Part shown: positions 4,247-57,827 of the stretch, one piece after another
Layout of the letters: each line of letters starts with the position of its first letter
How positions within the stretch are numbered: the first letter of the stretch is position 1
Virus record (IMG/VR): IMGVR_UViG_3300025626_000015
Location: 1-64,000 of that record
Source of the DNA: a virus
Length of the DNA stretch: 64,000 nucleotides
Reading direction: 5' to 3' (one strand)
Program-made: the position numbers and the translations under genes
Notes under the pieces: generated by a model
The model's database searches: none
Seen by the model: only the letters and a program-made list of their open reading frames with translations
Told to the model about the DNA's origin: nothing

Positions 4247-4426
4247 ATGAATGAACTAGAAAAAAACATGAAACGTATCGGAACAAAAAATATTTCTGAA
4301 CAAGATTCTGGACGTCAATTTGTTTCTACAAGTCAAAAACAATTACAATTATTAGAAGAACTTGTAAAAATTAATCGTCAAATGTTAATTGAATTACAAA
4401 AAATGCCAAAGAAAATTGGATCATGA
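4247..4426 (+). CDS. small leader-bearing protein, second leader type
   Basis: A 59-residue protein whose first 19 residues (MKRIGTKNISEQ at 8-19) match the start of the gene at 5063 (MKRFKTKNLDEQ). Both end in an (I/L)-x-E|Q site of the kind cut by T4 gp21-type prohead proteases. This appears to be a second type of capsid-targeting leader, different from MIKLKDILNE. The remainder is a short helical, Gln/Leu-rich segment (KQLQLLEELVKINRQMLIELQ). It opens the cargo cluster behind a TATTTATT element and an AAGGA site. Its stop overlaps the next start (ATGA). Packaging in the head is inferred from the leader. Confidence 0.6.
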   Translation: MNELEKNMKRIGTKNISEQDSGRQFVSTSQKQLQLLEELVKINRQMLIELQKMPKKIGS

Positions 4427-4926
4427 TTAAATTAAAAGATTTATTAGAACAACAACTTCCTGATGCATCTGCGACAGATTTGGCTCAAGGTTTAAATAGA
4501 GATCCAAAGACCGGAAATCCACTTCCTGGAGGAGCTGGTGGTAACGTTAATTTAAATTATAAAGAAATTAATTTAGATCAATTGAAATTTGATGATCTTG
4601 TAAAAATGTTTAGAGTCAAAGATTATTATAATGATGTTCATTTCAACAGAATGCAACCAGATGGTAAAGAAGGCCCATATTATAGAGATGGATTAAGTTT
4701 TCCTAATCCAAATGATACATCATCAATTATTGGAGATATGAAGTCATTGGAAAATTGGAAAGAAAGAACCAAAAGAAGATTTGGTAATATTAAAATAATA
4801 TTAAATCCAGATGCAGAAGAGCATTGGGAAAAAGTTAAAATTGAAGATGATAAATTTGATCAAGACAAAAAAGATGCAGATCAAGCAAAAATGGATACAT
4901 TAAAATCATGGGGAACCTCATCATGA
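4423..4926 (+). CDS. leader-bearing putative internal head protein
   Basis: 167 residues beginning MIKLKDLLEQQ, a canonical copy of the shared leader with a predicted cut L-L-E|Q after residue 9. The body is unrelated to other known proteins as far as I can tell. It is acidic and Asp/Lys rich, with a Gly-rich turn (GGAGGNVNLNYKEINLDQL) and a charged helical tail (DKFDQDKKDADQAKMDTL). It is coupled by ATGA overlaps to the genes on both sides. By analogy with T4 internal proteins (IPI-III, Alt) it would be packaged in the prohead and trimmed. The body's function is unknown. Confidence 0.65.
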   Translation: MIKLKDLLEQQLPDASATDLAQGLNRDPKTGNPLPGGAGGNVNLNYKEINLDQLKFDDLVKMFRVKDYYNDVHFNRMQPDGKEGPYYRDGLSFPNPNDTSSIIGDMKSLENWKERTKRRFGNIKIILNPDAEEHWEKVKIEDDKFDQDKKDADQAKMDTLKSWGTSS

Positions 4927-5066
4927 ATTGGATAAATAGCTGGAAAGCATATAACAAAAAAAGCGTATTTGAAATTAATATTAGAATAGGTACATTAACT
5001 ATATTAGAAATAGTAACTTCGCCTAAATTAAAAATAATGATATTAAACTTTGGAGTAGAAATATGA
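4923..5066 (+). CDS. short ORF with a duplicated 3' end, possible remnant
   Basis: A 47-codon frame linked by ATGA overlaps to both neighbours (starts in the stop of 4423-4926, ends in the start of 5063). Its last 15 codons (TSPKLKIMILNFGVEI region, 5022-5066) are nearly identical in DNA to 5463-5507, the end of the orphan leader ORF upstream of 5504. The N-terminal part (MNWINSWKAYNKKSVFEINI) is not recognised. It could be a small real protein, or a relic kept because the overlapping stop/start couples translation of the next gene. I lean towards a relic of cassette duplication. Confidence 0.45.
   Translation: MNWINSWKAYNKKSVFEINIRIGTLTILEIVTSPKLKIMILNFGVEI
5022..5066. repeat. 45-bp direct repeat, copy 1
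   Basis: Matches 5463-5507 at 43 of 45 positions. Both copies encode the C-terminal PKLKIMILNFG(V/I)EI and end in the ATGA that starts a leader-bearing gene, so the duplicated unit includes the coupling junction. Confidence 0.85.
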
Positions 5067-5389
5067 ATTTAAAAGAATCAATGAAAAGATTTAAAACTAA
5101 AAATCTTGATGAACAAATTTTTCAATCTGTAGCAGACCAACATCTATATAGATATAAAAATGATCCAGAATATAAAGCAATGATAGATAAACGAGAAGCT
5201 CAATCAGAAAGAGAAATAGAATTATTTAAAAATAAAATAAATAAATCAATAAAATATATATCTATAGAATTAAAAAAATTTATGCGATCTTCAAATGATA
5301 TAGCTCAAGATAGATATAAAAATGATCCAGAATTTAAAGCAATGATTGATAAATTAGCTCAAGGAATAATAGACTTGAAAAATAAATAA
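5063..5389 (+). CDS. leader-bearing protein with internal repeat
   Basis: 108 residues starting MNLKESMKRFKTKNLDEQ, the second leader type, with a predicted cut L-D-E|Q after residue 17. The mature part contains two near-identical segments, YRYKNDPEYKAMIDK (about residue 29) and DRYKNDPEFKAMIDK (about residue 82). They are separated by a basic helical linker (ELFKNKINKSIKYISIELKKFM), so the protein grew by internal duplication. It is highly charged and helical with no cysteines. It is probably a small encapsidated protein. Nothing indicates its activity. Confidence 0.6.
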   Translation: MNLKESMKRFKTKNLDEQIFQSVADQHLYRYKNDPEYKAMIDKREAQSEREIELFKNKINKSIKYISIELKKFMRSSNDIAQDRYKNDPEFKAMIDKLAQGIIDLKNK

Positions 5390-5405
5390 TTAAACTCAAA
5401 AACAT

Positions 5406-5468
5406 TTGATTAAACTCAAAGACATATTAATAGAACAAATAGGATTCCAAATTCCAGGATCTCCTAAA
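5406..5468. repeat. 63-bp perfect direct repeat, copy 1 (leader cassette)
   Basis: Identical to 6453-6515. It covers the TTG start, the whole leader and the next eleven codons (QIGFQIPGSPK). The perfect identity suggests a recent duplication or gene conversion of the leader. Confidence 0.95.
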
Positions 5469-5507
5469 TTAAAAATAATGATTTTAAACTTTGGAATAGA
5501 AATATGA
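5463..5507. repeat. 45-bp direct repeat, copy 2
   Basis: Partner of 5022-5066 (two mismatches). It overlaps the 63-bp leader repeat by six bases (5463-5468), which places a recombination junction there. Confidence 0.85.
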
Positions 5508-6436
5508 TTAAATTAAAAAAATTATTACCAGAACGCCAATTAAATGAATTAAGTTTAAAAAGTGTAGGAAATACAGTTAAAACTTTATTAAACAAAATAG
5601 CATTAAAAAGAGGTAAAAAAACTGCAGAAGATTTAAAACAATCAGACATAGCTGCAGCTATACCTAGTACAAGTCTTAGAAAATATTTAGGACAGTTAAA
5701 ATCAATTATAACTCCATTATATGCATTAGCAGTAATGGGTGATCAAGAACAAACCGAATCATGTAGAGCTATAGCATTAAAGATGGGGGTGATTAAATTA
5801 ATGAAAGGTTCCGGAGATTTTAATTCACCTGATGGAAATTTTGCTAGTGACAAATATCATGCACCAAAGATTAACGGAAGTGTAGAAGCAGTTAAGGATT
5901 TAATCTTTCGAATGCATCAAGATATGAAAAAAGAATTAAATAAGGTTGATTCAGCAGCTGCAGCTACATTTTCAATCACAGATGCAATTGAAATGTTATA
6001 TTTTAAATATAGCACTGAAAAAAGTGCATTAATGACAATTGCTCAAGGCATACAAAAAGCGGTAGGTCAATTTACATTAGACGGACGAATTTTTAGAATA
6101 TTGCAAAACGAAATAAGAAAATCTTTTCCTAATGAATCCGGAAGATTATTAAATTCAATAATGGCAGATTTTATAGGAAGTGTTGCAACTATTAGTAGTG
6201 ATTATGGTGGTAAAGCGTGCGTTGCATACTTTGACGGAATACGAAAACAAATTAACACTTTAAGTTATCAGTTTGGAGATACTGGTGCACCAGATGGTGG
6301 CTATAAGAAATATTGGAATGATGGCGATATAGATTGGAATATTTCAGTTAGTTGTATGGGAGATTGTACAACTTCAGAACCTAGGAATGTTTTAGATTCA
6401 TATGAAATTTCCAATAGAAAAAAGAATATTAAATAA
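5504..6436 (+). CDS. leader-bearing putative internal head protein (310 aa)
   Basis: Starts MIKLKKLLPERQLNEL, a diverged leader with candidate cuts L-P-E|R (residue 10) or L-N-E|L (residue 15). The 295-residue body is not recognised. It is mainly helical, with a segment around residues 70-130 (YALAVMGDQEQTESCRAIALKMG, then GSGDFNSPDGNFASDKYH) and a C-terminal region with three cysteines (GKACVAYFDGI, VSCMGDCTTSEP). It starts in the ATGA junction of the orphan leader ORF and ends just before the TTG start of the next cargo gene. It is probably packaged cargo of unknown activity. Confidence 0.65.
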   Translation: MIKLKKLLPERQLNELSLKSVGNTVKTLLNKIALKRGKKTAEDLKQSDIAAAIPSTSLRKYLGQLKSIITPLYALAVMGDQEQTESCRAIALKMGVIKLMKGSGDFNSPDGNFASDKYHAPKINGSVEAVKDLIFRMHQDMKKELNKVDSAAAATFSITDAIEMLYFKYSTEKSALMTIAQGIQKAVGQFTLDGRIFRILQNEIRKSFPNESGRLLNSIMADFIGSVATISSDYGGKACVAYFDGIRKQINTLSYQFGDTGAPDGGYKKYWNDGDIDWNISVSCMGDCTTSEPRNVLDSYEISNRKKNIK

Positions 6437-6452
6437 TTTTAAAGATTTAGAA

Positions 6453-6515
6453 TTGATTAAACTCAAAGACATATTAATAGAACAAATAGGATTCCAAATT
6501 CCAGGATCTCCTAAA
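6453..6515. repeat. 63-bp perfect direct repeat, copy 2 (leader cassette)
   Basis: Identical to 5406-5468. Here the leader is fused to a full cargo body, while copy 1 has lost its body. Confidence 0.95.
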
Positions 6516-6968
6516 CAAAAAAATATTGGACGTAAAACACGTCAGGAATTTGCTAAATTTTTCAATAACTTTGAAGCAGGCAATACAAAAACTGCTATAT
6601 CAGGTTATGCTGAGCAAATAATGAGATCAGATGCGCCTGATGAAGTAAAAGAAAATGCATCTAAAATATTAAATGAAATGGAGAAAGTAGCAATAGATAT
6701 CCAAGACGAATTACATACAAGGCAAATAAGTGACGATGAAGTTGCTGAAACAATATTTGATTATGTTAATTCTGAAATGGATGCTTCCGATTCAATTGAA
6801 TTTGAACAATTATTATGGTATGACAATCAAATTGATTCGAGTATCAACTCCGGAATGATAGAAAATGCTGTTGCTATAATGGACCAGTTACTTCACCAAT
6901 TAGAATTCATACGTGGTTTTATCTTACAAGAATTTCCAAAAATCTCTCCTGCAGGATTTAAAAGATAA
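6453..6968 (+). CDS. leader-bearing putative internal head protein (TTG start)
   Basis: I place the start at TTG 6453. From there the protein reads (M)IKLKDILIEQIGFQIPG, the standard leader with cut I-L-I-E|Q. An ATG at 6402 adds 17 residues unlike any leader and overlaps the previous gene. The 171-residue product is helical and acidic (KTRQEFAKFFNNFEAGNTKTAISGYAEQ; later ELHTRQISDDEVAETIFDYV), with a C-terminal helix pair. No family is recognised. The first 63 bases duplicate 5406-5468 exactly. It is probably packaged, trimmed cargo. Confidence 0.6.
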   Translation: MIKLKDILIEQIGFQIPGSPKQKNIGRKTRQEFAKFFNNFEAGNTKTAISGYAEQIMRSDAPDEVKENASKILNEMEKVAIDIQDELHTRQISDDEVAETIFDYVNSEMDASDSIEFEQLLWYDNQIDSSINSGMIENAVAIMDQLLHQLEFIRGFILQEFPKISPAGFKR

Positions 6969-6991
6969 AACTAATCTAGAAACATAACTAT

Positions 6992-7132
6992 ATGAAACAT
7001 ACAAGGTTTACTACTATCCTTACATACATACTGTGCGGAAAGTGCAAAAATAAATGGTTTACTAAAGGATATTTTGTTAACGAAATATGTCCAAAGTGTA
7101 AACATGAAGATACAACCGGTAATTCATTATAA
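6992..7132 (+). CDS. small zinc-ribbon protein (46 aa)
   Basis: A 46-codon frame encoding a two-knuckle zinc ribbon: CGKC (residues 15-18) and CPKC (33-36), spaced by a basic linker (KNKWFTKGYFVNEI). There is no leader sequence, so it is probably not packaged by the same route. It lies between two leader-bearing genes and resembles the zinc-ribbon portion of the protein at 7704 (CGNC...CHKC). Such mini zinc ribbons occur widely in T4-like phages as free proteins or as domains. The metal-binding fold is reasonably sure and the role is unknown. Confidence 0.6.
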   Translation: MKHTRFTTILTYILCGKCKNKWFTKGYFVNEICPKCKHEDTTGNSL

Positions 7133-7137
7133 AGTAA

Positions 7138-7145
7138 TATTTATA
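7138..7145 (+). promoter_or_regulatory. TATTTATA element
   Basis: Exact copy ending only 4 bases before the ATG at 7150. As a -10 box this would place transcription start at or inside the start codon. Confidence 0.5.
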
Positions 7146-7149
7146 TAAA

Positions 7150-7707
7150 ATGATTAAGCTCAAAGATATATTATTAGATGAAGGCACTCGCTGTTGGAAG
7201 GGATTCGAAAAAAAAGGCACTAAAGAAAAATATGGAAAACGTGTTCCTAATTGTGTTAAAAAAGAATCTAAATTACCCGATGAAGGATTTTCAGATCCAG
7301 ATCAAATGAGAATGTATGAAACAGACATTGACGAAGATTTAAGAAGATGGGCAAAAGAAAAGTGGACAGATCAACATGGTAATCCATGTGGTAGCTCTAA
7401 ATCTAAAGGAGTATTCAAATGCCGGCCATCTAAAAAAGTTTCTAAAAAAAGTCCAAAAACATGGAGTCAAGTTAACAAGAAAAAAGAAGTTGCTAAAAAG
7501 CGTAGGGTTGGAATGGGTAAAAGAACTAAGAAAGCTGAAGTTGTAATACCAATAAAAGAGAAAAAGAAAAACGCCAAAAGAGACGCATGTTATCACAAAG
7601 TAAAATCTAGGTATGAAATTTGGCCATCAGCCCGCGCGTCCCAAGCATTAGTTAAATGCAGAAAAACGGGAGCAAAGAATTGGGGTAAAACTACCACCAA
7701 AAAATGA
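7150..7707 (+). CDS. leader-bearing basic protein, DUF5872-like
   Basis: Leader MIKLKDILLDEG (cut L-D-E|G). Behind it come a Cys-containing segment (TRCWKGFEKKGTKEKYGKRVPNCVKKE), a RRWAKEKWTDQHGNPCGSSK region resembling the DUF5872 family of marine T4-like phages, and a strongly basic centre of Lys/Arg. The C-terminal module (DACYHKVKSRYEIWPSARAS, then ALVKCRKTG) is also common in those phages. The charge suggests binding to packaged DNA or RNA. It starts 4 bases after a TATTTATA element and is coupled to the next gene by overlap. Family resemblance is moderately sure. Packaging is inferred from the leader. Confidence 0.7.
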   Translation: MIKLKDILLDEGTRCWKGFEKKGTKEKYGKRVPNCVKKESKLPDEGFSDPDQMRMYETDIDEDLRRWAKEKWTDQHGNPCGSSKSKGVFKCRPSKKVSKKSPKTWSQVNKKKEVAKKRRVGMGKRTKKAEVVIPIKEKKKNAKRDACYHKVKSRYEIWPSARASQALVKCRKTGAKNWGKTTTKK

Positions 7708-8480
7708 TTAAGCTTAAAGACATATTAAACGAAATAATTGCAGGAAATAGAATACAATGTGGTAACTGTGATTGGAATTGGAAAATTGTAGATGGCGGAG
7801 CTGACTTATATGTGTGTCATAAATGTGGACATGACAATACTCCAACATTAAAAGAAAAAGAACAAGTAGTTCAAACAGATGATCCTTCAAAAATTAAAAA
7901 GCTTCGTATTGTATTTGCAAATGATACAAAAATAGAAAATGCATTGTCTGGACTATTCGTTCGTTTAGGTCTTGTTACAAAAACTTTTACTTCTATACAA
8001 GATGCAATTCAATATGTTATGGAATTACGAGATCTAGGAGTTTCTGATCTAGAAGAGTTAGTTATTGGCTCACATGGAACAACAACTGGTACAAAATTAA
8101 TAGGATCTTCTGAAAAGGATCAATTACGTGGTCGAGATTTTGAATATGAAGATGGATCTAAAAAATGGCATAATTATGATGAAGCTTTATTAATAGCGTG
8201 TAAAGATTTAATTAATTCTTCTACCAATGTATTTTTTACTGCGTGTTATGGTGCAGATCAACTTAATATTTTAGTTCATGCTGCGAATGTATTAGGAGTT
8301 ACTGTATATGGAGCAGCTGGTGTTAGCGCTCCTGGATTAAATAAAATATTAAATAAATTTTCAAAAAAGATTTTTAAATGTAAACCTGCACAAGAAGGGT
8401 TATCAAATGAAATATATTTAGAAAAACAAATTTGTTCTAATACAAATTCGCCAATACGATGGCTACGAGTAAAAGCATGA
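7704..8480 (+). CDS. leader-bearing zinc ribbon plus caspase/CHAT-like protein
   Basis: 258 residues in three parts. First the leader MIKLKDILNE|I. Second a zinc ribbon (C19, C22, C38, C41: CGNCDWNW ... YVCHKCGHDN), common in marine phage proteins. Third an alpha/beta domain from about residue 66 that resembles clan CD peptidases and DUF4347: ELVIGSHGTTTGTKL with His124, then NVFFTACYGADQL with Cys181, followed by a VTVYGAAG strand. His-Gly and Ala-Cys at strand ends are the catalytic dyad of caspase/CHAT-type proteases. If packaged and injected it could cleave a host protein early in infection. The zinc ribbon is clear. The protease call is by motif only. Confidence 0.6.
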   Translation: MIKLKDILNEIIAGNRIQCGNCDWNWKIVDGGADLYVCHKCGHDNTPTLKEKEQVVQTDDPSKIKKLRIVFANDTKIENALSGLFVRLGLVTKTFTSIQDAIQYVMELRDLGVSDLEELVIGSHGTTTGTKLIGSSEKDQLRGRDFEYEDGSKKWHNYDEALLIACKDLINSSTNVFFTACYGADQLNILVHAANVLGVTVYGAAGVSAPGLNKILNKFSKKIFKCKPAQEGLSNEIYLEKQICSNTNSPIRWLRVKA

Positions 8481-9478
8481 TAAAGCTTAAAGACATATTA
8501 AATGAACAAATTCCTAGTATGAATTTTGCATATCCATCTGCTCAAGCAGCAACATCTATAGAAAAAACTATTAGTCCATTTGTTACAGATGTAATGGAAT
8601 GGATTAAAAAAAACGATCATCTTTTAATAGACATATCAGCTTTAATAACATCTGCGATACCAGGCGGTATGCCAATGGCCATTGGATTAGAATTAACAAA
8701 TGCTGCTTTATATTTTAAAAAAGGTGACAAATTAATGGGAACTATATCTACTATATTTGCTGCTCTACCTATTATAGGATCAATTCCTGGTGTGAAACAA
8801 GCTATAGGATTTGGTTTAAAAACAGGAACTAAATATTCTTTAAGTCAAATAAAAAAGATTTTAGAAGTAGTAGTTAAATATAAAAGTAAGATACGAAGAC
8901 AAATGTTAGTAATAGAGTCGATGATTAAAAAATTTCCTCATTTAAATTTAGATAAATATTTAGACGAGTTAATTGCCGGCAAAATTGATGCTACATCGTT
9001 TTATAAAAATTTTAAAGGTTATAATAATACAATGAAAGTTATAAAAATAGATAAAGCTATGCCATTACAACATGTTTCTCCAGATCCTAATTTAACAATT
9101 AACAAATTAAACTTAACTGGATTTTTAGATAATATTAAAAATTTAACTCGTCCAAATTCTTTTAAGAGAAGGGTAGGCACAGATGCATTAAATAAACCAG
9201 GTGGATTATATACTACAAATCCACAAACTGCATCGCCATTTTATCAGCCAACAGGAAAAAAACCATATTATAATTTTGAATTAAAATCTGGAGCCAGGGG
9301 ACTAGATTTACAAAATACTGGAGGAATAATTGATGGAATGTCTGTTGGAAATTTAACTAAATATATGAATGATGGATTTGATTTTATAATAGGAACAGGA
9401 ATGTTAGGTAAACCTGAAGTCATTCCTTTAAATAAATCTGTAATACAAAATTGGAGAAAGGGAGTTCCATTTAAATAA
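8477..9478 (+). CDS. leader-bearing protein with hydrophobic domain and possible ART domain
   Basis: The start chosen is ATG 8477, which gives the exact leader MIKLKDILNE|Q and an ATGA overlap. ATG 8459 only adds six residues. Residues 50-113 are hydrophobic and Gly/Pro rich (ALITSAIPGGMPMAIGLEL, IFAALPIIGSIPGVKQ), perhaps membrane-active. The C-terminal 145 residues have an order of motifs that could be an H-Y-E ADP-ribosyltransferase core: LQHVS (H199), GGLYTT (Y245), KPEVIPL (E314). T4 Alt is also a head-packaged ART, which makes the idea attractive, but the similarity is weak. Alternatives are a pore-forming or RES-like toxin. Confidence 0.5.
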   Translation: MIKLKDILNEQIPSMNFAYPSAQAATSIEKTISPFVTDVMEWIKKNDHLLIDISALITSAIPGGMPMAIGLELTNAALYFKKGDKLMGTISTIFAALPIIGSIPGVKQAIGFGLKTGTKYSLSQIKKILEVVVKYKSKIRRQMLVIESMIKKFPHLNLDKYLDELIAGKIDATSFYKNFKGYNNTMKVIKIDKAMPLQHVSPDPNLTINKLNLTGFLDNIKNLTRPNSFKRRVGTDALNKPGGLYTTNPQTASPFYQPTGKKPYYNFELKSGARGLDLQNTGGIIDGMSVGNLTKYMNDGFDFIIGTGMLGKPEVIPLNKSVIQNWRKGVPFK

Positions 9479-9479
9479 T

Positions 9480-9776
9480 ATGATTAAACTAGAAAACATA
9501 TTAAAAAGCATTCCAAATCAAGAAATAGTTGAATCTCATCTCGGTCAATGGGAATATCCTGGTAGAATAACAAGAATACCAAGTAACACTATAACAATGC
9601 AGCCTGATCCTAGAACAGGTAAAGAAATAGAACATATATTATTAATAATAGGCGATCAATCAGGTGAAAAACAAATAGGTATTCCTAATGGACCAAATTT
9701 ATTTTTTCCTAACGATCAATCAGTTACGGAGTATCCAATTGGAAAATCAGAAGTTTATAAAAGTCGTAAAAAATAA
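9480..9776 (+). CDS. leader-bearing small protein, diverged leader
   Basis: 98 residues starting MIKLENILKSIPNQEIVES. The usual cleavage Glu at position 10 is replaced by Ser, but I-V-E|S (residues 16-18) offers an alternative (I/L/V)-x-E site. The body looks like a small beta-rich domain (EYPGRITRIPSNTITMQPDP, HILLIIGDQSGEKQIGIPN) with a basic end (KSRKK). No family is recognised. It begins two bases after the previous stop, inside the same transcription unit. Packaging is less certain than for its neighbours because the leader is degenerate. Confidence 0.55.
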   Translation: MIKLENILKSIPNQEIVESHLGQWEYPGRITRIPSNTITMQPDPRTGKEIEHILLIIGDQSGEKQIGIPNGPNLFFPNDQSVTEYPIGKSEVYKSRKK

Positions 9777-9924
9777 TAACTCACAAGTTTATTTAAATAT
9801 TAATCATATATCAACATTTTATACTGGTAATGATTCTGAATCAACTGTATTAAACTTTAAGGATGGTAAACGAATGTTTATTAAAGAACATATAGATATA
9901 TTCGCAGACAGAATTTCCATGTAA
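9688..9924 (+). CDS. small beta-rich protein overlapping the previous gene
   Basis: A 78-codon frame in a different phase from 9480-9776. The part after about residue 30 reads like a genuine small domain: VYLNINHISTFYTGNDSES, then TVLNFKDGKRMFIKEHIDIFADRI. This pattern recalls FlbD-like or LytTR-like mini-domains. The first 17 residues overlap the preceding gene and look like its shadow, so the true start may be the in-frame TTG at 9739 (MENQKFIKVVKNNN). No leader and no membrane segment. The existence of the downstream domain is fairly likely. The start is uncertain. Confidence 0.5.
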   Translation: MDQIYFFLTINQLRSIQLENQKFIKVVKNNNSQVYLNINHISTFYTGNDSESTVLNFKDGKRMFIKEHIDIFADRISM

Positions 9925-9938
9925 ATTTAGTAAATCAA

Positions 9939-9946
9939 TATTTATA
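9939..9946 (+). promoter_or_regulatory. TATTTATA element
   Basis: Exact copy 22 bases before the ATG at 9969, followed by an AAAAAGG ribosome-site-like string. Confidence 0.55.
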
Positions 9947-9968
9947 TTTAAATAAAAAGGTATTTAAC

Positions 9969-10154
9969 ATGACATCGAAAGAAATTTGTGAAGAAATGAA
10001 AGTATATTGGGAAGTATTTCTAGAGAATCATGAAAGATTTAATAATAAAAACGTTAAAGCGGCTGGCGTAAGAGCAAGAAAGTCTATTAACGAAATAAAA
10101 AAATTGGCTTCAAAATATAGAAGTACATGTTTAGCCGAGTCAAAAGAAATATGA
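9969..10154 (+). CDS. histone H1/Hc1-like small protein, copy 1
   Basis: 61 residues: helical N-half (MTSKEICEEMKVYWEVFLEN), then NKNVKAAGVRARKSINEIKKLASKYR. The K-AAG-RARK-I-EIKKL pattern is that of the Hc1/histone H1-like family common in Bacteroidota, which binds DNA or modulates nucleoid structure. A paralogue with the same core sits at 12664-12834. The proteins lack the long Lys/Ala tail of chlamydial Hc1. Preceded by a TATTTATA element and coupled by ATGA overlap to the leader-bearing gene at 10151. The family call is moderately confident. A DNA-binding role is inferred from the family. Confidence 0.65.
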   Translation: MTSKEICEEMKVYWEVFLENHERFNNKNVKAAGVRARKSINEIKKLASKYRSTCLAESKEI

Positions 10155-10864
10155 ACGAATCATCTTTAAGACATATTATACGTGAATATTTAACATCTAT
10201 GTTAATAGAGCAAGATATTGAAACATCATTATTTAGTCCAGCTGAAGAAAAGTTTTTAGCAACCTTTGTTAAATTAGAATCTAATAGTTTAGGTATATTA
10301 TATGCTAAAAGTTTAACTGGAATACGTGAATTTTTAAATAGAAGTGGCAAAGACTTCAATTTAACACCTGCAATTTTAAATAATCTACTAAAAAACAAAA
10401 CAATTTCCATAGTTCCTTATGGTGGTTATTCAAGAAATGAGGATTATACCATTCAATTGAACATACCATTAGAAGATTTAGCAGGAATTAAAGGCTCTGA
10501 AGGCGATGATGCATCAGACACTGCTGCAGAACCTCCTGTTGCTGAAGAAAGTGTTCAAAGTTTAGCTCAAAATATTGTAGCAGAAGCAAAAAAATCAAAA
10601 AAAAAGAAAAAAAGTAAGGTTCATACCAGCAAATCTAGAGCATTAAAGCGATTACCTAGAGGATATGTCACTTATTTAGAGAAAATTATCCAAGTTTTAG
10701 GCGAAAAAGTGAAAAATGACATGGAAAAGGAGCATTTGGTTGCAGATATCCTTGATAACCTGTCTCATAACTTTGGTTTAACACCTAAACAAGTATATCG
10801 ATCCTATATTTATTATAAATCGCAGAATAGATTATCAAATTTAGTGAAAGACAACAATGATTAA
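10151..10864 (+). CDS. leader-bearing protein with basic linker
   Basis: I start it at ATG 10151, in the ATGA overlap. The upstream ATG 10127 adds eight residues inside the H1-like gene. The N-terminus MNESSLRHIIREYLTSMLIE|QD is a third leader style with the same I-E|Q end. Then come a globular region (residues 30-115), an acidic Ala/Pro/Glu linker, a run of eleven Lys/Ser residues (KKSKKKKKSK), and a helical C-terminal domain (VTYLEKIIQVLGEKVKNDME, then DNLSHNFGLTPKQVYRSYIYY). The basic run suggests contact with packaged DNA. No family is recognised. Confidence 0.6.
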   Translation: MNESSLRHIIREYLTSMLIEQDIETSLFSPAEEKFLATFVKLESNSLGILYAKSLTGIREFLNRSGKDFNLTPAILNNLLKNKTISIVPYGGYSRNEDYTIQLNIPLEDLAGIKGSEGDDASDTAAEPPVAEESVQSLAQNIVAEAKKSKKKKKSKVHTSKSRALKRLPRGYVTYLEKIIQVLGEKVKNDMEKEHLVADILDNLSHNFGLTPKQVYRSYIYYKSQNRLSNLVKDNND

Positions 10865-11957
10865 ATTAAAAAACTTATTATTTGAACAACAATTGGATGC
10901 TTACAAAGAAAAAGGATTTCCAACATTTTCAAAATGGGTATCAGCTACATTTCCTGCTAGATATGTAAACTTATTAGCAAGGCCTGGCCAATTTCCTGCA
11001 AAATCTAGAGTAGCAGTGCAGCAATTTTCAGAAGATTCAATAAAAACAATGGCGTCTGACTGGGATGAATGGGTCGAATCTACAGGACCAAAAAAAGTTG
11101 AAAGAAAAAAAGCTAGAGTAGTAGCTTCATTTCAAAAAATACCTGGAGAAATAATACCTGGCGAACCTCCTGAAATTATAAAACGAAAAATAGTTATTGA
11201 TACAAACTCTGTATATAAAGATAAACAAACTTCAGATGGACAACCATCCGCAGCTTTAGTACTTACTAAATTAAAAGAGCAGATGCAGTTGATTGGTCAA
11301 GATAATCCTCCAGAAGAAGGAGTAAAACTAGTAGTAGGAATAGCAGATTATCAAGTATATGCATCTACTAGCACAGTTCCTTCAAATCCTCCAAATTCAC
11401 AATTAGTTAAACAAAGAGCTGGTGATATGACTAATGCATTTAAATCAGCTGTTGCACAATTACAAAGTGAGATGGGGTTGTATCTAGGAGACATGAAAGA
11501 AGTAGATCCAATTCTAGCGCCTAACCAAGGTCCAGAATGGCCGTCTAAAGATGCGGCAGGTAATGATGTTGCAAATACAAGTGCAGCAAAAACTGCAGCA
11601 TATGGACCAGTTGGGAATCGTAACGATTTTTATGAAAAAACATATGGTGAATTTAGAAAAGCATATATTACTGTTAGTATAAATATAACAAAAATAATAG
11701 AAGAAACTGAAGAAAAAAGAGGAGAAGGATCTGAAAATAGTAATTGGGCATTTACAATTGCAGAAAAACCTAAAAAAGTTCCACCACCAAAACCTCCAAG
11801 AGTTCCACCCGGAATATTTGTTTCAAAACAAAAGCCAGGAACATGTTTTTCTTTTAAAGATCCATCAAAACTTAAACGAATTGCTCCATTTATGGCATTT
11901 GGTAAAGGTACAAGATCTTCTGAAAAATCTTTTGCAAAACAAAAAAGAAATCTTTAA
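10857..11957 (+). CDS. leader-bearing putative internal head protein (366 aa)
   Basis: Leader MIKLKNLLFE|QQ (cut L-F-E|Q). The body is not recognised. It is an alpha/beta protein with Pro-rich segments (EIIPGEPPEIIK, KPKKVPPPKPPRVPPG) and a basic C-terminus (GKGTRSSEKSFAKQKRNL). The middle region around residues 118-215 (KIVIDTNSVYKDKQTSDGQP, later VVGIADYQVYASTSTVP) alternates strands and helices. It is the last and longest gene of the cargo cluster and overlaps the preceding gene by 8 bases. Probably packaged and trimmed. The body function is unknown. Confidence 0.65.
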   Translation: MIKLKNLLFEQQLDAYKEKGFPTFSKWVSATFPARYVNLLARPGQFPAKSRVAVQQFSEDSIKTMASDWDEWVESTGPKKVERKKARVVASFQKIPGEIIPGEPPEIIKRKIVIDTNSVYKDKQTSDGQPSAALVLTKLKEQMQLIGQDNPPEEGVKLVVGIADYQVYASTSTVPSNPPNSQLVKQRAGDMTNAFKSAVAQLQSEMGLYLGDMKEVDPILAPNQGPEWPSKDAAGNDVANTSAAKTAAYGPVGNRNDFYEKTYGEFRKAYITVSINITKIIEETEEKRGEGSENSNWAFTIAEKPKKVPPPKPPRVPPGIFVSKQKPGTCFSFKDPSKLKRIAPFMAFGKGTRSSEKSFAKQKRNL

Positions 11958-33079: not shown

Positions 33080-34672
33080 ATGAGCAATCAAAATTCAGAC
33101 ATAACTACATATTACGGTGCCCCACCTACAGTATTAAAAAAGATCGATCCAACTGATTATAAAGTTAATCTATTTGAAGCTAATAAAACTTTTTCATTTA
33201 CATCTGCTTCTGCTGAATCTAATAATTTTTTACCATTATTAGGAATTTATCAAAAAATATTGCCAAATGTTTCAGCTTCATCATTTACATCTCCATTAAA
33301 TTCAGATGGATCCTATCAATTTCAAACATATTATTCGATTAATCATTTATTCTATCAATATAAAAATGAACCTACAAAAACGTATGGTCCAACTGATTTA
33401 AACAAAATATCAAAATTTTTATATCAATCTGCATCTGTTTTTAGTATACCACAAATTAAATTTGGAGAAGGAATAAAACCTGATTCATTTACTTATGTTT
33501 CTAGTTCTGGATTAACATTAAATTCAGATCGATTTGGTAATATATTTGATACCTCAATTAATACTGGATCGTTTCCTTTAAATGAAATATTTTATGAAGG
33601 ATTCAATGAATATTTTGATTTAACAAAAATTTCATATACAAATTATAATAATTTAAAATTTGAAAATGGTGTATCTACAACTACGGGTCAACAATTACCA
33701 ATTGGATTATCAGCTAGATTTACAGGATCTAGTTATATTGAAACAAATTTAAATGGATATTATGATAGAGATCATGATTATTCTATATCATTTTATATAA
33801 AACCAAATTCTTCACAATTTGGAAATGGACAATTAATATTAGGTAAAACAACAATTGTTAGTAGTCAACAATATCCATTTAAAATCGAATTATCAGGATC
33901 TGGTAATTTAAAATTTACAACACAAGGATCTGAAAATTTAATTGCATCTATAACTTCGTCTGTTATTAGTACAAGTGATTGGAGTCATGTTATATGTCAA
34001 AAAACTGGAAGTAATTTAGAATTATTTACAAACACGGTAAAAAATAGTTCTGGGAGTTTTAATTTTATAAATACCCCTATTGATATATTAACTACATCGT
34101 CTGTTTATATTAATAATGACAATAACTTGTCAATTGGCGGATATCAAGTTGATAATTCCATAGGAGATTCTAAATATTTAAATGCTGATCTAGATGAAAT
34201 TAGAATTTATAATAAATCATTAACACAAGATCAAGTAAATTCATTAGGTAATCGAACAGAAGTTTCAAAACAAATATTACAAACAAATCGTGTTGGTAAT
34301 GTATTTGATAAATCTGGATTTTTTATAATTTCTAGTCCTAATTATCGATATAAAGACTTAATTAATTCAGATTATACTATAACATATAAAAGTACTGTTA
34401 GAAGATATGAACATTCTGTATTTTTAACAATAGATCAAGGCGATTTTAATGCAACTTTAAATCCAACTACTTTATTAGATGATAATATTAATATGAAATC
34501 ATTTGCTACTAGTAGTTTATTTAATCCATATATAACTACTATAGGATTGTATAATGATAAAGGACAGTTGTTAATGATTGGTAAAACTGGTACTCCTATA
34601 AAAAATAGAAATGACATTGATTTAAACTTTCAATTGAAAATAGATTTAGATAAACCTCGAGGAATTTTATAA
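33080..34672 (+). CDS. tail protein with LamG-like domain and shared C-terminal module
   Basis: 530 residues. Residues about 205-390 form a LamG/concanavalin-like sandwich (GLSARFTGSSYIETNLNGYY, DYSISFYIKPNSSQFGNGQL, YLNADLDEIRIYNKSLTQDQ), a pattern of carbohydrate-binding laminin-G folds. The last 70 residues carry the module shared with 31836 (PYITTIGLYNDKGQLLMIGK). The N-terminal 200 residues are unassigned but begin with a Pro-rich tag (APPTVLKKIDPTDYKVNLFE). It probably binds host surface glycans. The stop overlaps the start of the next gene by one base. Confidence 0.65.
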   Translation: MSNQNSDITTYYGAPPTVLKKIDPTDYKVNLFEANKTFSFTSASAESNNFLPLLGIYQKILPNVSASSFTSPLNSDGSYQFQTYYSINHLFYQYKNEPTKTYGPTDLNKISKFLYQSASVFSIPQIKFGEGIKPDSFTYVSSSGLTLNSDRFGNIFDTSINTGSFPLNEIFYEGFNEYFDLTKISYTNYNNLKFENGVSTTTGQQLPIGLSARFTGSSYIETNLNGYYDRDHDYSISFYIKPNSSQFGNGQLILGKTTIVSSQQYPFKIELSGSGNLKFTTQGSENLIASITSSVISTSDWSHVICQKTGSNLELFTNTVKNSSGSFNFINTPIDILTTSSVYINNDNNLSIGGYQVDNSIGDSKYLNADLDEIRIYNKSLTQDQVNSLGNRTEVSKQILQTNRVGNVFDKSGFFIISSPNYRYKDLINSDYTITYKSTVRRYEHSVFLTIDQGDFNATLNPTTLLDDNINMKSFATSSLFNPYITTIGLYNDKGQLLMIGKTGTPIKNRNDIDLNFQLKIDLDKPRGIL

Positions 34673-35217
34673 TGTTAAAATTAAAAAATATATTAAATGA
34701 AATTTCAGAAGACGAAGCTACACGTTTATTAAGTAAAATTAAAAATAAAGAATTAACATTCCTAGGTAGTGGAGATAATGGAAAGGTATATTCTATTAAT
34801 GGCGAAGATTTATTATTTAAGATTACAACTGAACCGGAAGAATTAGCAATTGCTGATGTTATTGTAGGAAGACCAAATGAATTTGATGCATTTATACCAG
34901 TATATTATTCTGACTCACAAAAACGTATGTATATAATGAATCGAGCTAGTGAATTACCTAATAATTTAAAATCAGAATTAGATAGATATTATGAAGATTA
35001 TAAAGAATTTGCTAGAAGTCAAGGTTTAGAAACTAGTATATTTGATTATTTAAATACAGAAGCTTCTAGAAAATATAATCCTAGGATTATTACATTTTTA
35101 CGAGCATTAGAACAACAAGTTAAAAAAACCGGAATAGGCGACATAGAATACTCGTTAGATTTCAGGCCTGAAAATATTATGTCTTGGAATGGTAATCTAG
35201 TTATGATAGACTGGTAA
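34672..35217 (+). CDS. leader-bearing protein kinase-like protein
   Basis: 181 residues. The first ten (MLKLKNILNE) are a copy of the capsid-targeting leader, with cut L-N-E|I, far from the main cargo cluster. The rest has a minimal protein-kinase-like fold: Gly loop LGSGDNGKVY (31-40), Lys50 in LLFKI, a catalytic-loop-like LDFRPENIM (162-170; Asp163, Asn168), and a terminal VMIDW (Asp180), equivalent to the metal-binding DFG. The C-lobe is drastically shortened and ends right at the DFG-equivalent. It may phosphorylate or otherwise modify a host target when injected. Kinase-like motifs are clear. Activity is unproven. Confidence 0.65.
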   Translation: MLKLKNILNEISEDEATRLLSKIKNKELTFLGSGDNGKVYSINGEDLLFKITTEPEELAIADVIVGRPNEFDAFIPVYYSDSQKRMYIMNRASELPNNLKSELDRYYEDYKEFARSQGLETSIFDYLNTEASRKYNPRIITFLRALEQQVKKTGIGDIEYSLDFRPENIMSWNGNLVMIDW

Positions 35218-35226: not shown

Positions 35227-35715
35227 ATGAAGAATCATTGGCACTCTAATAATAAACAACGCCAAGCAGCGTATAAATATGGATATCGTTCTGGATTAGA
35301 ACTAAAGGTTGCAGATCAAATTAAAGAAGCAAAATATCCTGTAAATTATGAAACTGAAACATTAAAATATATTGTTCCGCAAAAAAATTCAAAATATACA
35401 CCAGATTTTATTTTTACTAAAAAAGATGGTAAAACGATGTATATTGAAACAAAAGGACGTTGGACTAGTACTGATAGACAAAAAATGAAAAATATATTAG
35501 CTTCAAATCCAGATATTGATTTAAGAATAATATTTCAAAATCCTAATCAAAAAATTTCAAAAGGATCTAAAACAACATATGAAGCATATGCTATGAAAAT
35601 TGGTATCGTATATGTTGCAAAAAAAGATATACCATTAGAATGGTTAAATGAGTGTTGTAAAATAGATGAAGCACCAAAAAAAATAAAAATTTTAAATGAT
35701 TGGTTGGATAATTGA
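35227..35715 (+). CDS. T7 endonuclease I-like Holliday junction resolvase
   Basis: 162 residues with the full catalytic pattern of T7 gp3: YRSGLELKVADQ (Glu25), KYTPDFIF (Asp60), MYIETKGRW (Glu74, Lys76). In T7 endonuclease I the active site is E20, D55, E65 and K67, so the spacing matches well. It would resolve branched DNA before packaging, the job done in T4 by gp49. It is preceded by AAAGGA and sits between the kinase-like gene and the primase. Confident. Confidence 0.85.
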   Translation: MKNHWHSNNKQRQAAYKYGYRSGLELKVADQIKEAKYPVNYETETLKYIVPQKNSKYTPDFIFTKKDGKTMYIETKGRWTSTDRQKMKNILASNPDIDLRIIFQNPNQKISKGSKTTYEAYAMKIGIVYVAKKDIPLEWLNECCKIDEAPKKIKILNDWLDN

Positions 35716-43772: not shown

Positions 43773-46046
43773 ATGAATAACGTAACAGTATTATTTCCAG
43801 GAGGCTTCAAGCCAATAACCGGAGCACATATGGCTCTTGCTCAAAGATACGCTCAAAATCCTAGTGTTGACAAAGTTATCATGTTAATAGGTCCTAAAGA
43901 GCGAGACGGTATAACAAGAAATACAAGTATTAAAATGTTTAATTTGTTAAATAGAAACAATAATATTGAAATACAATCAACAGATTTTAATTCGCCTATT
44001 ATGGCTGCATATGAATATCTATTTTCATTACCAGAAAACGCTCAAGGTCAATTTGCATTAGCTGCATCAGAAAAAGATGAAGATTATGTTCGAGTAAAAA
44101 CATTTCTACCAAATGTAGATAAGTATAAATTAACTGGTGATAGAAAAGGAAGAAAAATCCCAGTTGGTATTGATGCAGTTGAATTAACAGTTTCTGTAGA
44201 CCCTTTAAAATATGATGATGGTAATGCAATATCAGCATCTGCCGTAAGAGCAGCCTTAAATGCAGATGCATATAGTAAATTTAAAGAAAGTTATCCTGGA
44301 TATGATGAATCTATTATAAAAAATATTTGGCAAATGCTTGGCGGAGCTCCAACATATGGAGATGTAATGGGATCTGAAATTAAAAAAAGCATTAAAGACA
44401 TTGAAGATGGTGATGTAATATTATTAGACAATGGTAATAAGTTTAAGGTAGATTATATAGATCCATGGAGTGCCGGCGGTAGAATAATTAACGGTACAGA
44501 TCTTGAAACAGGTAAAAAAGGAAAGTTAAAAATTAAGTTCTTAACACCAAGAGGGAATACAGGCCTCGCAGATGATACCATGTTAACAGTATTAAAAGAA
44601 TCATTAACTATGAAAGAATGGTTCTTGCAAGAATTTGAAAATAATGCAAATGAAATAGCAGAACAAATGGGAGTTGGATATATGACTCCAAAGGGAGCTG
44701 TAGCACATCAAAAGAAAATTAAAAAACTTAGAAAATTTCTTGACAAGAAAAATGATCGTGGATTTACATATGATTTTGATGAATATCCGAAAACTGTATT
44801 TGGAACAAAATATTTAAATGAAGGTGGATTAGCTGGTCATATGTCACATCCATTTGATATGAATAGATCACAATCATTAACATTTGCAGATTTCAAAGAA
44901 ATGATCGCACGTGGATTACAAGGTAGATTAGATATTGAAAACACCGTTACTGAAAAAACAGATGGACAAAATATTTTTATGACTTTTAAAGACGGAGCAG
45001 TTAAATTTGCTAGAAATGGCGGAGAACGTGTAAATCCATTAACTGTTAAAGAATTACAAGCAAAGTTTGCAGGAAGAGGTAATATATCAGACGCATTTGG
45101 AGAAGCCGGAACAGATTTAGCAGCTGCTTTTGCAAAAGTAGGATTAGAAAAATTACAAAGTATTTTTCAAAATGGCAAGGTATTTGCTAATATGGAAATT
45201 ATATATCCGCCAACAAAAAATGTTATATCATATGAAGCAGCATATTTGCAATTTCATAATCTTGTAGAATTTGATGAAAAAGGAAAAATTGTACAAACTG
45301 ATTTAACCGGTGGTGCTGTTGTACAAAAAGCTGTAACAGACGCAAACTCAGATTTACAAAATACATTTAATTTAATTCCACCTCAAAAAATTAAATTAGG
45401 CCAAATTGAAAATTTTCAAGACTATCAAGATGCATTATTCAATGAATTAAATCAACTACGTGACAAATATAATCTAAAAGACACAGATACAGTTTCAGAG
45501 TATCACAAATCATGGTGGAGAGATATTATACGAGCTAAAGCAAATGAGTTTAATTATAATATACCTAACGAAGTAATAGATATATTAATGAATAGATGGG
45601 CATATAATATTAAATCACCTAACGTCTCTGCAGTAGCTAAAATGATAGACAATGCAGAGTTTGTAGAATGGATGAGAGGGTTTGATAAAAAAGACTTTAA
45701 AAAATATATAAAAGACAATATACAGCCATTTGAATCAATATTCTTAAAATTAGGTGCAGAAATAATGAAGAATGTATCTAATTTTTTAGCACCGAATCCT
45801 GCAAAAGCTGTACAAGATATTAGAAAAGAAATTGCACAAATAATTCGCACATTGAGATCTACTAATGATATATCAAAAATGGAATTACTAAAAACTCAAT
45901 TGGATAAAATTAAAAGATTAGGCGGATTCGAAAAAATAGTTCCGGTAGAAGGAATTGTATTTGTATATGGAGGTAATACATATAAACTAACTGGAGCATT
46001 TGCTCCGCTAAACCAAATATTAGGAACATTAAAGTATTCTAGATAA
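43773..46046 (+). CDS. nucleotidyltransferase fused to ligase-like domain
   Basis: 757 residues. N-terminal domain: FPGGFKPITGAHMALAQRYA (residues 8-27; TGAH replaces the HxGH of NMNAT/cytidylyltransferases), then ISASAVRAAL (near 155), equivalent to the ISSSxxR motif of NadR/NMNAT. The middle part begins YMTPKGAVAHQKKIKKLR. The C-terminal half carries GGLAGHMSHPFDMNRSQSLT and TEKTDGQNIFMTFKDGAVKF (Lys395), the KTDGQN motif of a ligase-like adenylation domain found in T4-like marine phages. It may handle NAD or nucleotide chemistry together with adenylation of an RNA/DNA end. Domains are recognised. The substrate is not. Confidence 0.7.
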   Translation: MNNVTVLFPGGFKPITGAHMALAQRYAQNPSVDKVIMLIGPKERDGITRNTSIKMFNLLNRNNNIEIQSTDFNSPIMAAYEYLFSLPENAQGQFALAASEKDEDYVRVKTFLPNVDKYKLTGDRKGRKIPVGIDAVELTVSVDPLKYDDGNAISASAVRAALNADAYSKFKESYPGYDESIIKNIWQMLGGAPTYGDVMGSEIKKSIKDIEDGDVILLDNGNKFKVDYIDPWSAGGRIINGTDLETGKKGKLKIKFLTPRGNTGLADDTMLTVLKESLTMKEWFLQEFENNANEIAEQMGVGYMTPKGAVAHQKKIKKLRKFLDKKNDRGFTYDFDEYPKTVFGTKYLNEGGLAGHMSHPFDMNRSQSLTFADFKEMIARGLQGRLDIENTVTEKTDGQNIFMTFKDGAVKFARNGGERVNPLTVKELQAKFAGRGNISDAFGEAGTDLAAAFAKVGLEKLQSIFQNGKVFANMEIIYPPTKNVISYEAAYLQFHNLVEFDEKGKIVQTDLTGGAVVQKAVTDANSDLQNTFNLIPPQKIKLGQIENFQDYQDALFNELNQLRDKYNLKDTDTVSEYHKSWWRDIIRAKANEFNYNIPNEVIDILMNRWAYNIKSPNVSAVAKMIDNAEFVEWMRGFDKKDFKKYIKDNIQPFESIFLKLGAEIMKNVSNFLAPNPAKAVQDIRKEIAQIIRTLRSTNDISKMELLKTQLDKIKRLGGFEKIVPVEGIVFVYGGNTYKLTGAFAPLNQILGTLKYSR

Positions 46047-53300: not shown

Positions 53301-53924
53301 ATGAGTAAGAATTTATTATTAGAATATATACCATTTAAGCCTATCGGCCCTGTTAATGAGCAAATGGCTTCACAATTTGGAGTTCCTGGCGGATTAGTAG
53401 TACAAGGGGTATTACAACGAGCAGGAGCTAAGAATCAAAACGGAAGAGTATATCCTAAACATATATTAGATAGAGAAGCTAAAAAATATCAAAAAGAATA
53501 TATTGATCAAAATAGAGCATTAGGGGAATTAGATCATCCTGAATCTTCTGTTGTTAATTTAAATAACGTTTCTCATAACATTTTAAAAATGTGGTGGGAT
53601 AAAGATGATTTAATGGGAGCCGTACAAATATTAGAAACACCAGCTGGAAAAATATTAAAATCATTATTCGATGCTGGTATTACATTAGGAATATCTAGTA
53701 GAGGATTAGGCTCAGTAAAAGAATTATATAAAGAATCTGCAGTAGAAGTGCAGGAAGATTTTGAATTAATTTGTTTTGATTTTGTTTCAAATCCTTCAAC
53801 CCATGGAGCATTTTTAAGACCAATGAATGAATCAGTAAACAAATCAACAAAAGATTATAAAAAAGTAAATGATATTATTACATCAATATTATGTGATAGT
53901 GGAAAATGTAGGATTTTACCATGA
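53301..53924 (+). CDS. prohead maturation protease, gp21-like
   Basis: 207 residues (T4 gp21: 212). The serine-protease signature of the family is visible: LVVQGVLQRAGAKNQNGRVY, RALGELDHPESSVVNLNNVS (His79), and LGISSRGLGSVKE (Ser132/133). The N-terminus (PFKPIGPVNE|Q) itself contains a candidate autocleavage site. In T4 this enzyme cuts scaffold, capsid and internal proteins after (I/L)-x-E. Here it is the likely processor of the leader-bearing cargo. An AGGAG lies 6-10 bases before the ATG. Confident. Confidence 0.9.
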   Translation: MSKNLLLEYIPFKPIGPVNEQMASQFGVPGGLVVQGVLQRAGAKNQNGRVYPKHILDREAKKYQKEYIDQNRALGELDHPESSVVNLNNVSHNILKMWWDKDDLMGAVQILETPAGKILKSLFDAGITLGISSRGLGSVKELYKESAVEVQEDFELICFDFVSNPSTHGAFLRPMNESVNKSTKDYKKVNDIITSILCDSGKCRILP

Positions 53925-55113: not shown

Positions 55114-56148
55114 ATGAACGGGAAATCGGACTTACTAAAAGAAGCAATTGCAGATGCCAAAGCCGTTAAGGAAACAGCATTAGCAAACGCTAAAATAGCT
55201 CTTGAAGAAGCTTTTGCTCCTAGAATCGAAGCAATGCTATCAACAAAACTTTCTGAAGATTTATACGAAGACGAAATGGAAGACGACGTCGCAGCTCCAG
55301 TAGCTGACGCACCTGTCGAAGAACATGACGTTATGTATGAGCCTGAAGCAGAAGGCGGAGAAGATATGGAAGCACCTGCACCAGAAATGGATGTTGAAAT
55401 GGATATGGAAATGCCTGCTGAAGAACCAGTAGTTGCAGATGACATGGAAATGGAAGGCATGATGTATGATGTAGATGAAGATCCATCTGATCCTAATAGT
55501 AGTGTTGAAGAAGATCTAGAATTAGAAGCAATCATAAGAGAGTTAGAAGAAGATTTAAATGAAGAAGAATTAACTGAAGATGGTCATAATAATGACGCAG
55601 CTGATTCTACAGACTCAAAAGGAAATGATTTAATGTCAGAACCAAAAGAAATGAAAAATGAAGAATTCAATATTGATGAAATCATTGAAGAAATTCTTTC
55701 GGAAGAAGACAAAGAAGAACCTAAAGAAAAAGTAGAAGAAGGTGAGCATGATGATAAAGAATCTAAAGAAAAAGTAGAAGAAATGACTGAAGAATTAACT
55801 GAAGCATATGACACTATTGAATCTTTAAGAGACACTATCAATGAAGTTAATCTTTTAAATGCAAAACTTCTTTACACGAATAAATTATTCAGAAATTTTG
55901 AATTATCAGAAAGTCAAAAAATGACAGTTATCGAAAATTTCGATAGAGCTGGTAATACAAGAGAAGTTAAATTAGTATTTAGTACATTAGCAGAAAATTT
56001 TACAGTTCCTGTAAAAAAGAGACAAATGGTAAAAGAAGGCTCAGCCTCTAAACCAGTTGAATCAACTGCACCTGTATCTAAATCAATAATCAATGAAGGT
56101 AATCAATTAGCTAACAGATGGAAGAAGTTAGCCGGATTACTAGATTAA
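55114..56148 (+). CDS. prohead core scaffold protein, gp22-like
   Basis: 344 residues. Charged helical N-terminus (SDLLKEAIADAKAVKETALA), a long acidic, Met/Glu/Asp-rich middle (EMDVEMDMEMPAEEPVVADD) and a conserved C-terminal domain (NEVNLLNAKLLYTNKLFRNF, ELSESQKMTVIENFDRAGNT, REVKLVFSTLAENF) that resembles the gp22 C-terminus in T4-like phages. It forms the prohead core and is degraded by the protease. It lies directly before the major capsid gene. It has its own terminator-isolated promoter and a strong ribosome site. Confident. Confidence 0.85.
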   Translation: MNGKSDLLKEAIADAKAVKETALANAKIALEEAFAPRIEAMLSTKLSEDLYEDEMEDDVAAPVADAPVEEHDVMYEPEAEGGEDMEAPAPEMDVEMDMEMPAEEPVVADDMEMEGMMYDVDEDPSDPNSSVEEDLELEAIIRELEEDLNEEELTEDGHNNDAADSTDSKGNDLMSEPKEMKNEEFNIDEIIEEILSEEDKEEPKEKVEEGEHDDKESKEKVEEMTEELTEAYDTIESLRDTINEVNLLNAKLLYTNKLFRNFELSESQKMTVIENFDRAGNTREVKLVFSTLAENFTVPVKKRQMVKEGSASKPVESTAPVSKSIINEGNQLANRWKKLAGLLD

Positions 56149-56165
56149 AAAAGGAAAATAAAAAA

Positions 56166-57827
56166 ATGGAAATTTCATCTTTATTAGAAGATAACAATCC
56201 TTCCCAAAGAAATGCAGCTAAAGCAACTGTTAATAAATGGGAAAGAACAGGACTCCTTGAAGGATTAAAAGGAGAAACTGAAAAAGCCGGAATGGCTCAG
56301 CTTCTAGAAAACCAGGCTAGACAACTTGTAAAAGAAGCGTCTGCAACTGGTACGACAGAAGGATCAGAAGAATGGGCTGGTGTAGCACTTCCATTGGTAA
56401 GAAGAATCTTTGCTGAATTTGCAGCAAAAGAATTTGTTTCTGTACAACCAATGAACTTGCCATCAGGACTAGTATTTTATTTGGATTTCAAATACGGTAC
56501 TGCACAACCAGGATTCGATGACGATAACGCAGACAGTTTAGCACAAACAGGTGATCCTTTTGGACCACAAAGTGCAGCTGATTCTATGTTTGGTATAACT
56601 ACTACCGAAAATGACCCATCAGGTGGTCTTTATGGTGCTGGTAGATTTGGATACTCAATCAATGAGATAGCAGTTACTGCTTCAGGTACTATTGGTACTG
56701 CAACATCATCATCTGTAAACTATGATTCTGCATATACTGATATATTAGCTGCCAACCCACATACGGTTGTTAGCATACCATTATCATCATTGTCTGGATC
56801 AGATACTACTGCAGTAAGATCATTTATTATTGCAACTGGTTCCGGTGGTACTGTTAATCAAGTAAGTGCATTTACAAAAGTAAACGCTGCTAAGACACAT
56901 GTTGAGTTTGTAATTACTGGTTCAAATAGCTTAAGTCCATCTGCTGGTGATTATATTGTAAAATATAGTGCTCAACCATCTGATATATCTAGAGGAGACT
57001 TTGAAGATTCAAATCCTTTCAAAGGTTCTGGTGCTGGTACAGGTATCAATAATGGTACTGATATTGACATTCCAGAAGTTAATTTAGAAATGCAATCAGA
57101 TCCTATAGTTGCTAAGACTAGAAAACTAAAGGCTGTTTGGACTCCTGAATTTGCTCAAGATTTAAATGCATACCATTCAATTGACGCTGAAGCTGAATTA
57201 ACTTCAATGTTAAGCGAATATGTATCAATGGAAATTGATCTTGAAATTTTAGATATGTTAATCAATGGTGCAGTAACAACTGAATATTGGTCAGCTGAAT
57301 CTAATCAATTCTTTTCTCCATCACAAAATAAATTTGTTGGAAAAGATGTAGCCGGTGGCGGATATTATAATACACAAGGAGAGTGGTTCCAAACTTTAGG
57401 AACTAAACTTCAAAAAGTATCTAACAAAATTCATCAAAAAACACTTAGAGGTGGTGCTAATTTCTTAGTTACTTCACCTGCTGTTGCAACTATCCTAGAA
57501 TCAATTCCTGGATTTGCTGCTGACACAGATGGTAACAAAATGGAATTTGCTGCTGGTGTTCAAAAAATTGGTGCAATCAATAATAGATACACAGTATATA
57601 AAAACCCTTACATGAAAGAGAACGTAATCCTTATGGGTTATAGAGGAGCACAATTCCTTGAAACTGGTGCAGTTTATTCACCATATGTTCCATTAATCAT
57701 GACTCCACTAGTATACGATCCTGTTAATTTCACCCCAAGAAAAGGTGTAATGACAAGATATGCTAAGAAAATGGTAAGACCAGAATTCTACGGTAAAGTA
57801 TATGTTGCTGGATTAAATTCTATTTAA
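56166..57827 (+). CDS. major capsid protein, gp23-like
   Basis: I start it at ATG 56166 (MEISSLLEDNNPSQRNAAKA). The ATG at 56118 lies in the end of the scaffold gene. 553 residues (T4 gp23: 521). The prohead-specific N-terminal region carries candidate protease sites (QLLE|N, LVKE|A), then EEWAGVALPLVRRIFAEFAA, VSVQPMNLPSGLVFYLDFKY and, late, KLQKVSNKIHQKTLRGGANF, ENVILMGYRGAQFLETGAVY, KKMVRPEFYGKVYVAGLNSI, all gp23-typical. It forms the hexamers of the shell. AAAAGGA precedes the start. Confident. Confidence 0.95.
   Translation: MEISSLLEDNNPSQRNAAKATVNKWERTGLLEGLKGETEKAGMAQLLENQARQLVKEASATGTTEGSEEWAGVALPLVRRIFAEFAAKEFVSVQPMNLPSGLVFYLDFKYGTAQPGFDDDNADSLAQTGDPFGPQSAADSMFGITTTENDPSGGLYGAGRFGYSINEIAVTASGTIGTATSSSVNYDSAYTDILAANPHTVVSIPLSSLSGSDTTAVRSFIIATGSGGTVNQVSAFTKVNAAKTHVEFVITGSNSLSPSAGDYIVKYSAQPSDISRGDFEDSNPFKGSGAGTGINNGTDIDIPEVNLEMQSDPIVAKTRKLKAVWTPEFAQDLNAYHSIDAEAELTSMLSEYVSMEIDLEILDMLINGAVTTEYWSAESNQFFSPSQNKFVGKDVAGGGYYNTQGEWFQTLGTKLQKVSNKIHQKTLRGGANFLVTSPAVATILESIPGFAADTDGNKMEFAAGVQKIGAINNRYTVYKNPYMKENVILMGYRGAQFLETGAVYSPYVPLIMTPLVYDPVNFTPRKGVMTRYAKKMVRPEFYGKVYVAGLNSI

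Follow-up and report, generated by a model that had tools for sequence, protein, structure and literature searches.

A kinase-like protein ending at its DFG-equivalent aspartate, with a predicted capsid-targeting leader, in a T4-like phage

The open reading frame (ORF) 34672–35217 lies in a 64,000-nucleotide stretch of viral DNA (the window), positions 1 to 64,000 of the 75,717-base IMG/VR record IMGVR_UViG_3300025626_000015. Its product has a well supported kinase-like fold, according to the structural model, and a well supported conserved active site, according to the alignment, and it ends at the aspartate equivalent to that of the Asp-Phe-Gly (DFG) motif, so that the whole C-lobe is missing. 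Judging by analogy with T4, the product is probably delivered by the virion. The most likely reading, which we put only a little above an even chance, is that of a minimal kinase that is made late, packaged and ejected and acts on the host; its packaging, cleavage, ejection, activity and target we infer.

Relatives were gathered from environmental viral contigs by three IMG/VR scans, the third of which confirmed 348 places, and they are 48–100% identical to the window protein. The fetched loci yielded 92 distinct sequences with complete ends, and all 92 stop at (I/V)DW, one residue past the DFG-equivalent Asp, with TAA, TAG and TGA all serving as the stop codon. Hence the ORF is a real gene and not a chance one. 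The ratio of nonsynonymous to synonymous substitution rates (NG86 method), calculated against four relatives, is about 0.08–0.38. An earlier reading of this DNA (the sequence-only reading) had pointed to the start MLKLKNILNE|I, Lys50, Asp163, Asn168 and Asp180; all of these are present, the stop follows D180-W181, and the claimed loss of the activation segment and most of the C-lobe agrees with the conserved end of the relatives. The length of about 170 residues given there fits the predicted processed form (171), whereas the full ORF encodes 181 residues. A C-lobe supplied through a programmed frameshift or from a split gene was ruled out, since the downstream genes vary among the relatives and no C-lobe is found there. 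The sole isolate homologue, found by a profile search (E 6e-8), is the 146-residue protein QQO91857.1 of Flavobacterium phage immuto, which ends in IIDV. The tblastn search for relatives in cultured phages yielded none, and no family members were found in bacterial genomes.

In the alignment of 64 family sequences the residues G34/N36/G37, K50, E54/E57, D163, N168 and D180 are invariant. The catalytic loop follows the pattern D-F-[KR]-x-[DE]-N, and no His precedes D163. The AlphaFold model built from these sequences has a mean predicted local distance difference test score (pLDDT) of 89.6 and a predicted template modelling score (pTM) of 0.84, while a model from only ten sequences was poor. 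In the Foldseek comparison, the three PDB matches at E <= 0.001 are APH(2'')-IVa, followed by Lpg2603, 5-methylthioribose kinase, RIO1, LicA and PRPK; protein kinases complete the best 50. The viral matches include kinases of the T7 type and a number of small proteins from jumbo phages. The kinase-like fold proposed from the sequence was thus recovered by structure prediction. The matches have modest template modelling scores, which is what a fold without much of the kinase domain should give. There is no activation segment, APE motif or helices F to I, because the protein ends, and between the hinge and the catalytic loop the model has an unusual helical region, residues 97–153. Of the best fold matches, APH(2''), RIO1 and PRPK/Bud32 keep residues beyond the DFG-equivalent, unlike the window protein. 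Among the jumbo-phage matches (RaK2 H6X4G3, CBB, Yaphecito; 168–194 residues) the likely RaK2 protein also differs from it, running about 30 residues past a DYG motif and lacking the leader seen here. Sequence matches in the PDB to S100-A9 and pyrophosphatase were judged to be due to chance.

The loss of the C-lobe has a precedent. In the Kinase-PolyVal domains (PF18762) that Iyer and colleagues described from injected polyvalent proteins of phages, the whole C-terminal subdomain is lost; they reported these domains from phages of Bacteroidetes and as stand-alone proteins too (PMC5512222). Members are present in 11 of 395 Bacteroidota genomes, and those that we fetched end about 7–12 residues past the DFG-equivalent Asp. 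Both families have lost the entire subdomain and both keep the active-site residues needed to bind ATP and to transfer phosphate; unlike Kinase-PolyVal, the family described here stops one residue past the Asp and carries a T4-type leader. In the virus record nothing matches the PF18762 model at E<=10, and hmmscan of the ORF product does not retrieve it. Moreover, the Kinase-PolyVal Glu N-terminal to strand 2 (GAEQ) is absent, the family having GDNG, as is the Gln of the last N-lobe strand (AVVEQ), where the family has YIM[NSK][RK]A. The insert between the conserved His and the phosphotransfer Asp cannot be placed, because of the missing His. A profile comparison gave a score of 20.0, which is not significant, being equalled by 6 of 100 column shuffles, with the catalytic residues in register. 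Hence, as judged from the sequences, the family resembles the Kinase-PolyVal group in the way it would work, by two architectural features, but these comparisons do not establish it as a member; with respect to C-lobe loss it is a more extreme variant.

The leader is conserved at selected positions: L4 in 61 of 64 sequences, L or I at position 7 in all 64, L8 in 58 (L or I at 8 in 62) and E10 in all 64. Every one of the 64 sequences is hydrophobic at 4, 7 and 8, and positions 6 and 9 vary freely. Residues 1–9 are unstructured in the model (pLDDT <50). In T4 IPIII, residues 4 and 7 govern capsid targeting, and residues 8 and 10 govern processing (PMC9026906). The family shares with the T4 internal proteins the N-terminal leader of about ten residues, the targeting residues 4 and 7, and the (L/I)xE processing site at 8–10; the same functional positions are seen in the 10-residue leaders of T4 IPI-III and Alt, all of which are ejected. 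Alt is an ADP-ribosyltransferase, and the logic of an enzyme as cargo is common to both cases, but here the body is a kinase-like fold and the packaging is a prediction. As in T4, a gp21-type protease is encoded in the same genome. Seven other ORFs of the window begin with the same leader pattern, and its strict form occurs neither on the minus strand nor in residue shuffles. A 173 kb relative carries a comparable set of leader-bearing ORFs, and RaK2 (345 kb) has only three scattered weak matches. The roles of MLKLKNILNE in capsid targeting and processing are therefore supported by analogy with T4.

The start codon of the kinase-like gene overlaps by one base the stop codon of a structural gene with a LamG domain. 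This gene is directly upstream in 68 of the 69 contigs with enough sequence, usually overlapping or abutting. In the exception (locus L304, whose contig carries the kinase as L018) a leader-bearing metallopeptidase-like ORF intervenes; it lies after 5524 and has an HELTH motif. Directly behind the kinase-like gene, 38 of 60 relatives checked have a protein other than an endonuclease, mostly leader-bearing, and the others have endonuclease I. Many of these proteins are 400–1000 residues long with LxE-type leaders, several have the exact MIKLK-type leader, and one contains a peptidoglycan-binding domain. Hence the kinase-like gene belongs to a cargo-bearing locus. The sequence-only reading had placed it far from the cargo cluster, which holds in the source genome, where the main leader-bearing cluster (4.4–12 kb) is about 23 kb away, but not in those 38 relatives. 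In three loci (L015, 10559–11782; L048, 10559–11398; L034, from 7690) the C-terminal part of the leader-bearing protein behind the kinase resembles, on inspection by eye, an M15-type D,D-peptidase with a motif of the HYDHIH type; a Pfam search with two of these proteins gave no significant match.

In the reading that we favour, the kinase would be made late, its translation coupled to that of the LamG gene. The leader would draw it into the prohead core, the gp21-type protease would cut after Glu10, and the enzyme of about 171 residues would be ejected along with the DNA and phosphorylate some component of the host as infection begins. As the activation segment and helices F to I are absent, substrates would have to be held by the region 97–153 or by a partner. 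The strongest form of the proposal, that a near-universal gene of a widespread T4-like phage group encodes an active kinase ending at the DFG Asp, which may be one of the smallest known and which is packaged by its leader, injected and phosphorylates a host target at once, is more tentative, and we rate it somewhat below an even chance. A search of the literature aimed at phage kinases that are injected gave nothing. Such a gene would join in one testable object the T4 capsid-targeting leader and the C-lobe-less kinases, which so far are known as predictions within injected phage proteins; an active enzyme would show how small a part of the kinase fold suffices for catalysis. With the leader rule, candidate virion cargo can also be listed for uncultured phages of the T4-like type.

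Several points weigh against the reading that we favour. The Pfam and NCBIfam kinase models do not match the family. By our reading of its sequence, the immuto homologue has Ser in the place of D163. Among solved kinases we know of none stopping at the DFG Asp, which makes activity uncertain. Finally, the gene is near-universal and coupled to a structural gene, which is less typical of host-directed effectors, as these tend to be sporadic. The latter point also favours the first alternative, a packaged or late kinase acting in assembly on phage proteins (the head core, the tail or the neighbouring LamG protein), which we consider unlikely but the best of the rivals; however, the leader class marks unrelated bodies, as cargo would show. 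A pseudokinase, or a scaffold that binds nucleotides and transfers no phosphate, would be consistent with the loss of the whole C-lobe and with the immuto substitution. The invariance of K50, D163, N168 and D180 in 64 of 64 sequences is hard to explain without catalysis, and this option is less probable again.

A cytoplasmic takeover kinase, made after infection, unpackaged and with an incidental leader, seems improbable. The sequence-only reading had drawn the parallel with T7 gp0.7, and for activity it is apt: three of the 64 members match the T7 kinase family of PHROG weakly (best E 0.0056), and T7-type kinases are among the structural matches. T7 gp0.7 and JSS1_004, like the window protein, combine a phage kinase-like fold with presumed host targets, and JSS1_004 blocks the DndFGH defence (PMC12345140). 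However, both are made early and have a C-terminal shutoff domain, for which the protein ending at the DFG-equivalent has no counterpart. The parallel is unfair for timing, because the gene overlaps a structural gene, and an incidental leader would not account for selective conservation of positions 4, 7, 8 and 10 within a disordered stretch. An AMPylase-like (SelO) or HipA/Fic-like enzyme, a suggestion peculiar to the sequence-only reading, is very improbable, as no such protein is among the best 50 PDB matches and the catalytic loop has the D-x4-N pattern of ordinary kinases.

Table 1. Features of the window discussed in the text
Feature	Position	Strand	Evidence or remark
C-lobe-less kinase-like gene	34672..35217	+	181 aa, end ...VMIDW*; relatives, AlphaFold2 model, Foldseek
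Leader MLKLKNILNE, predicted capsid-targeting, (L/I)xE cleavage after Glu10	34672..34701	+	alignment, disorder in model, T4 IPIII rule
Gly-rich loop G34-D35-N36-G37	34771..34782	+	G34, N36, G37 64/64; D35 61/64
K50, ATP-binding lysine, strand 3	34819..34821	+	64/64
E54 to E57, helix C start, candidate Lys partner	34831..34842	+	both Glu 64/64; model helix 55-64
Catalytic loop D163-F-R-P-E-N168	35158..35175	+	D163, N168 64/64; position 165 K/R in 57/64
D180 (DFG-equivalent), W181, stop	35209..35217	+	DW-stop in 92/92 IMG/VR sequences with complete ends
Upstream structural gene, 530 aa, LamG/concanavalin domain	33080..34672	+	Laminin_G_3 E 8.8e-15; PHROG virion structural protein E 4e-10
Downstream endonuclease I (T7 gp3 type)	35227..35715	+	PF05367 E 1e-34
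Leader-bearing ORF cluster	4423..11957	+	starts 4423, 5504, 6453 TTG, 7150, 7704, 8477, 10857; mostly unnamed bodies
T4 gp21-type head maturation (prohead) protease	53301..53924	+	phrog_207 E 1.3e-56
TATTTATA before ORF starts	3453, 7138, 9939, 19043, 21369, 24190, 33045, 39916, 43761, 46047, 49881, 51715, 57908	+	

The virus record is of the T4-like type, with a terminase, gp21-type protease, major head protein and gp46/47-like genes; the endonuclease I of the T7 type stands within this T4-like background. The terminase is nearest to those of Microcystis phage Mel-JY01 and Flavobacterium phage immuto, and the matches of the sigma factor are almost exclusively in Bacteroidota genomes. Hence the host, as far as these sequences indicate, is probably a Bacteroidota bacterium.

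The box TATTTATA, the reverse of the T4 late box, is a candidate promoter. It occurs in 19 copies on the plus strand and 5 on the minus strand, a total not above chance, but 13 of the 19 plus-strand copies are situated 12–35 bases upstream of ORF starts, and this placement looks non-random. The box is also seen downstream of the kinase stop codon in many relatives. The 757-residue protein encoded at 43773–46046 has a nucleotidyltransferase-like start (GGFKPITGAHM); in immuto, a gene downstream of the primase is annotated as NMN (nicotinamide mononucleotide) adenylyltransferase. For the major head protein ORF (56118–57827) the listed start runs into the gene before it, so that an internal Met (MEISSLLEDN) is the probable start.
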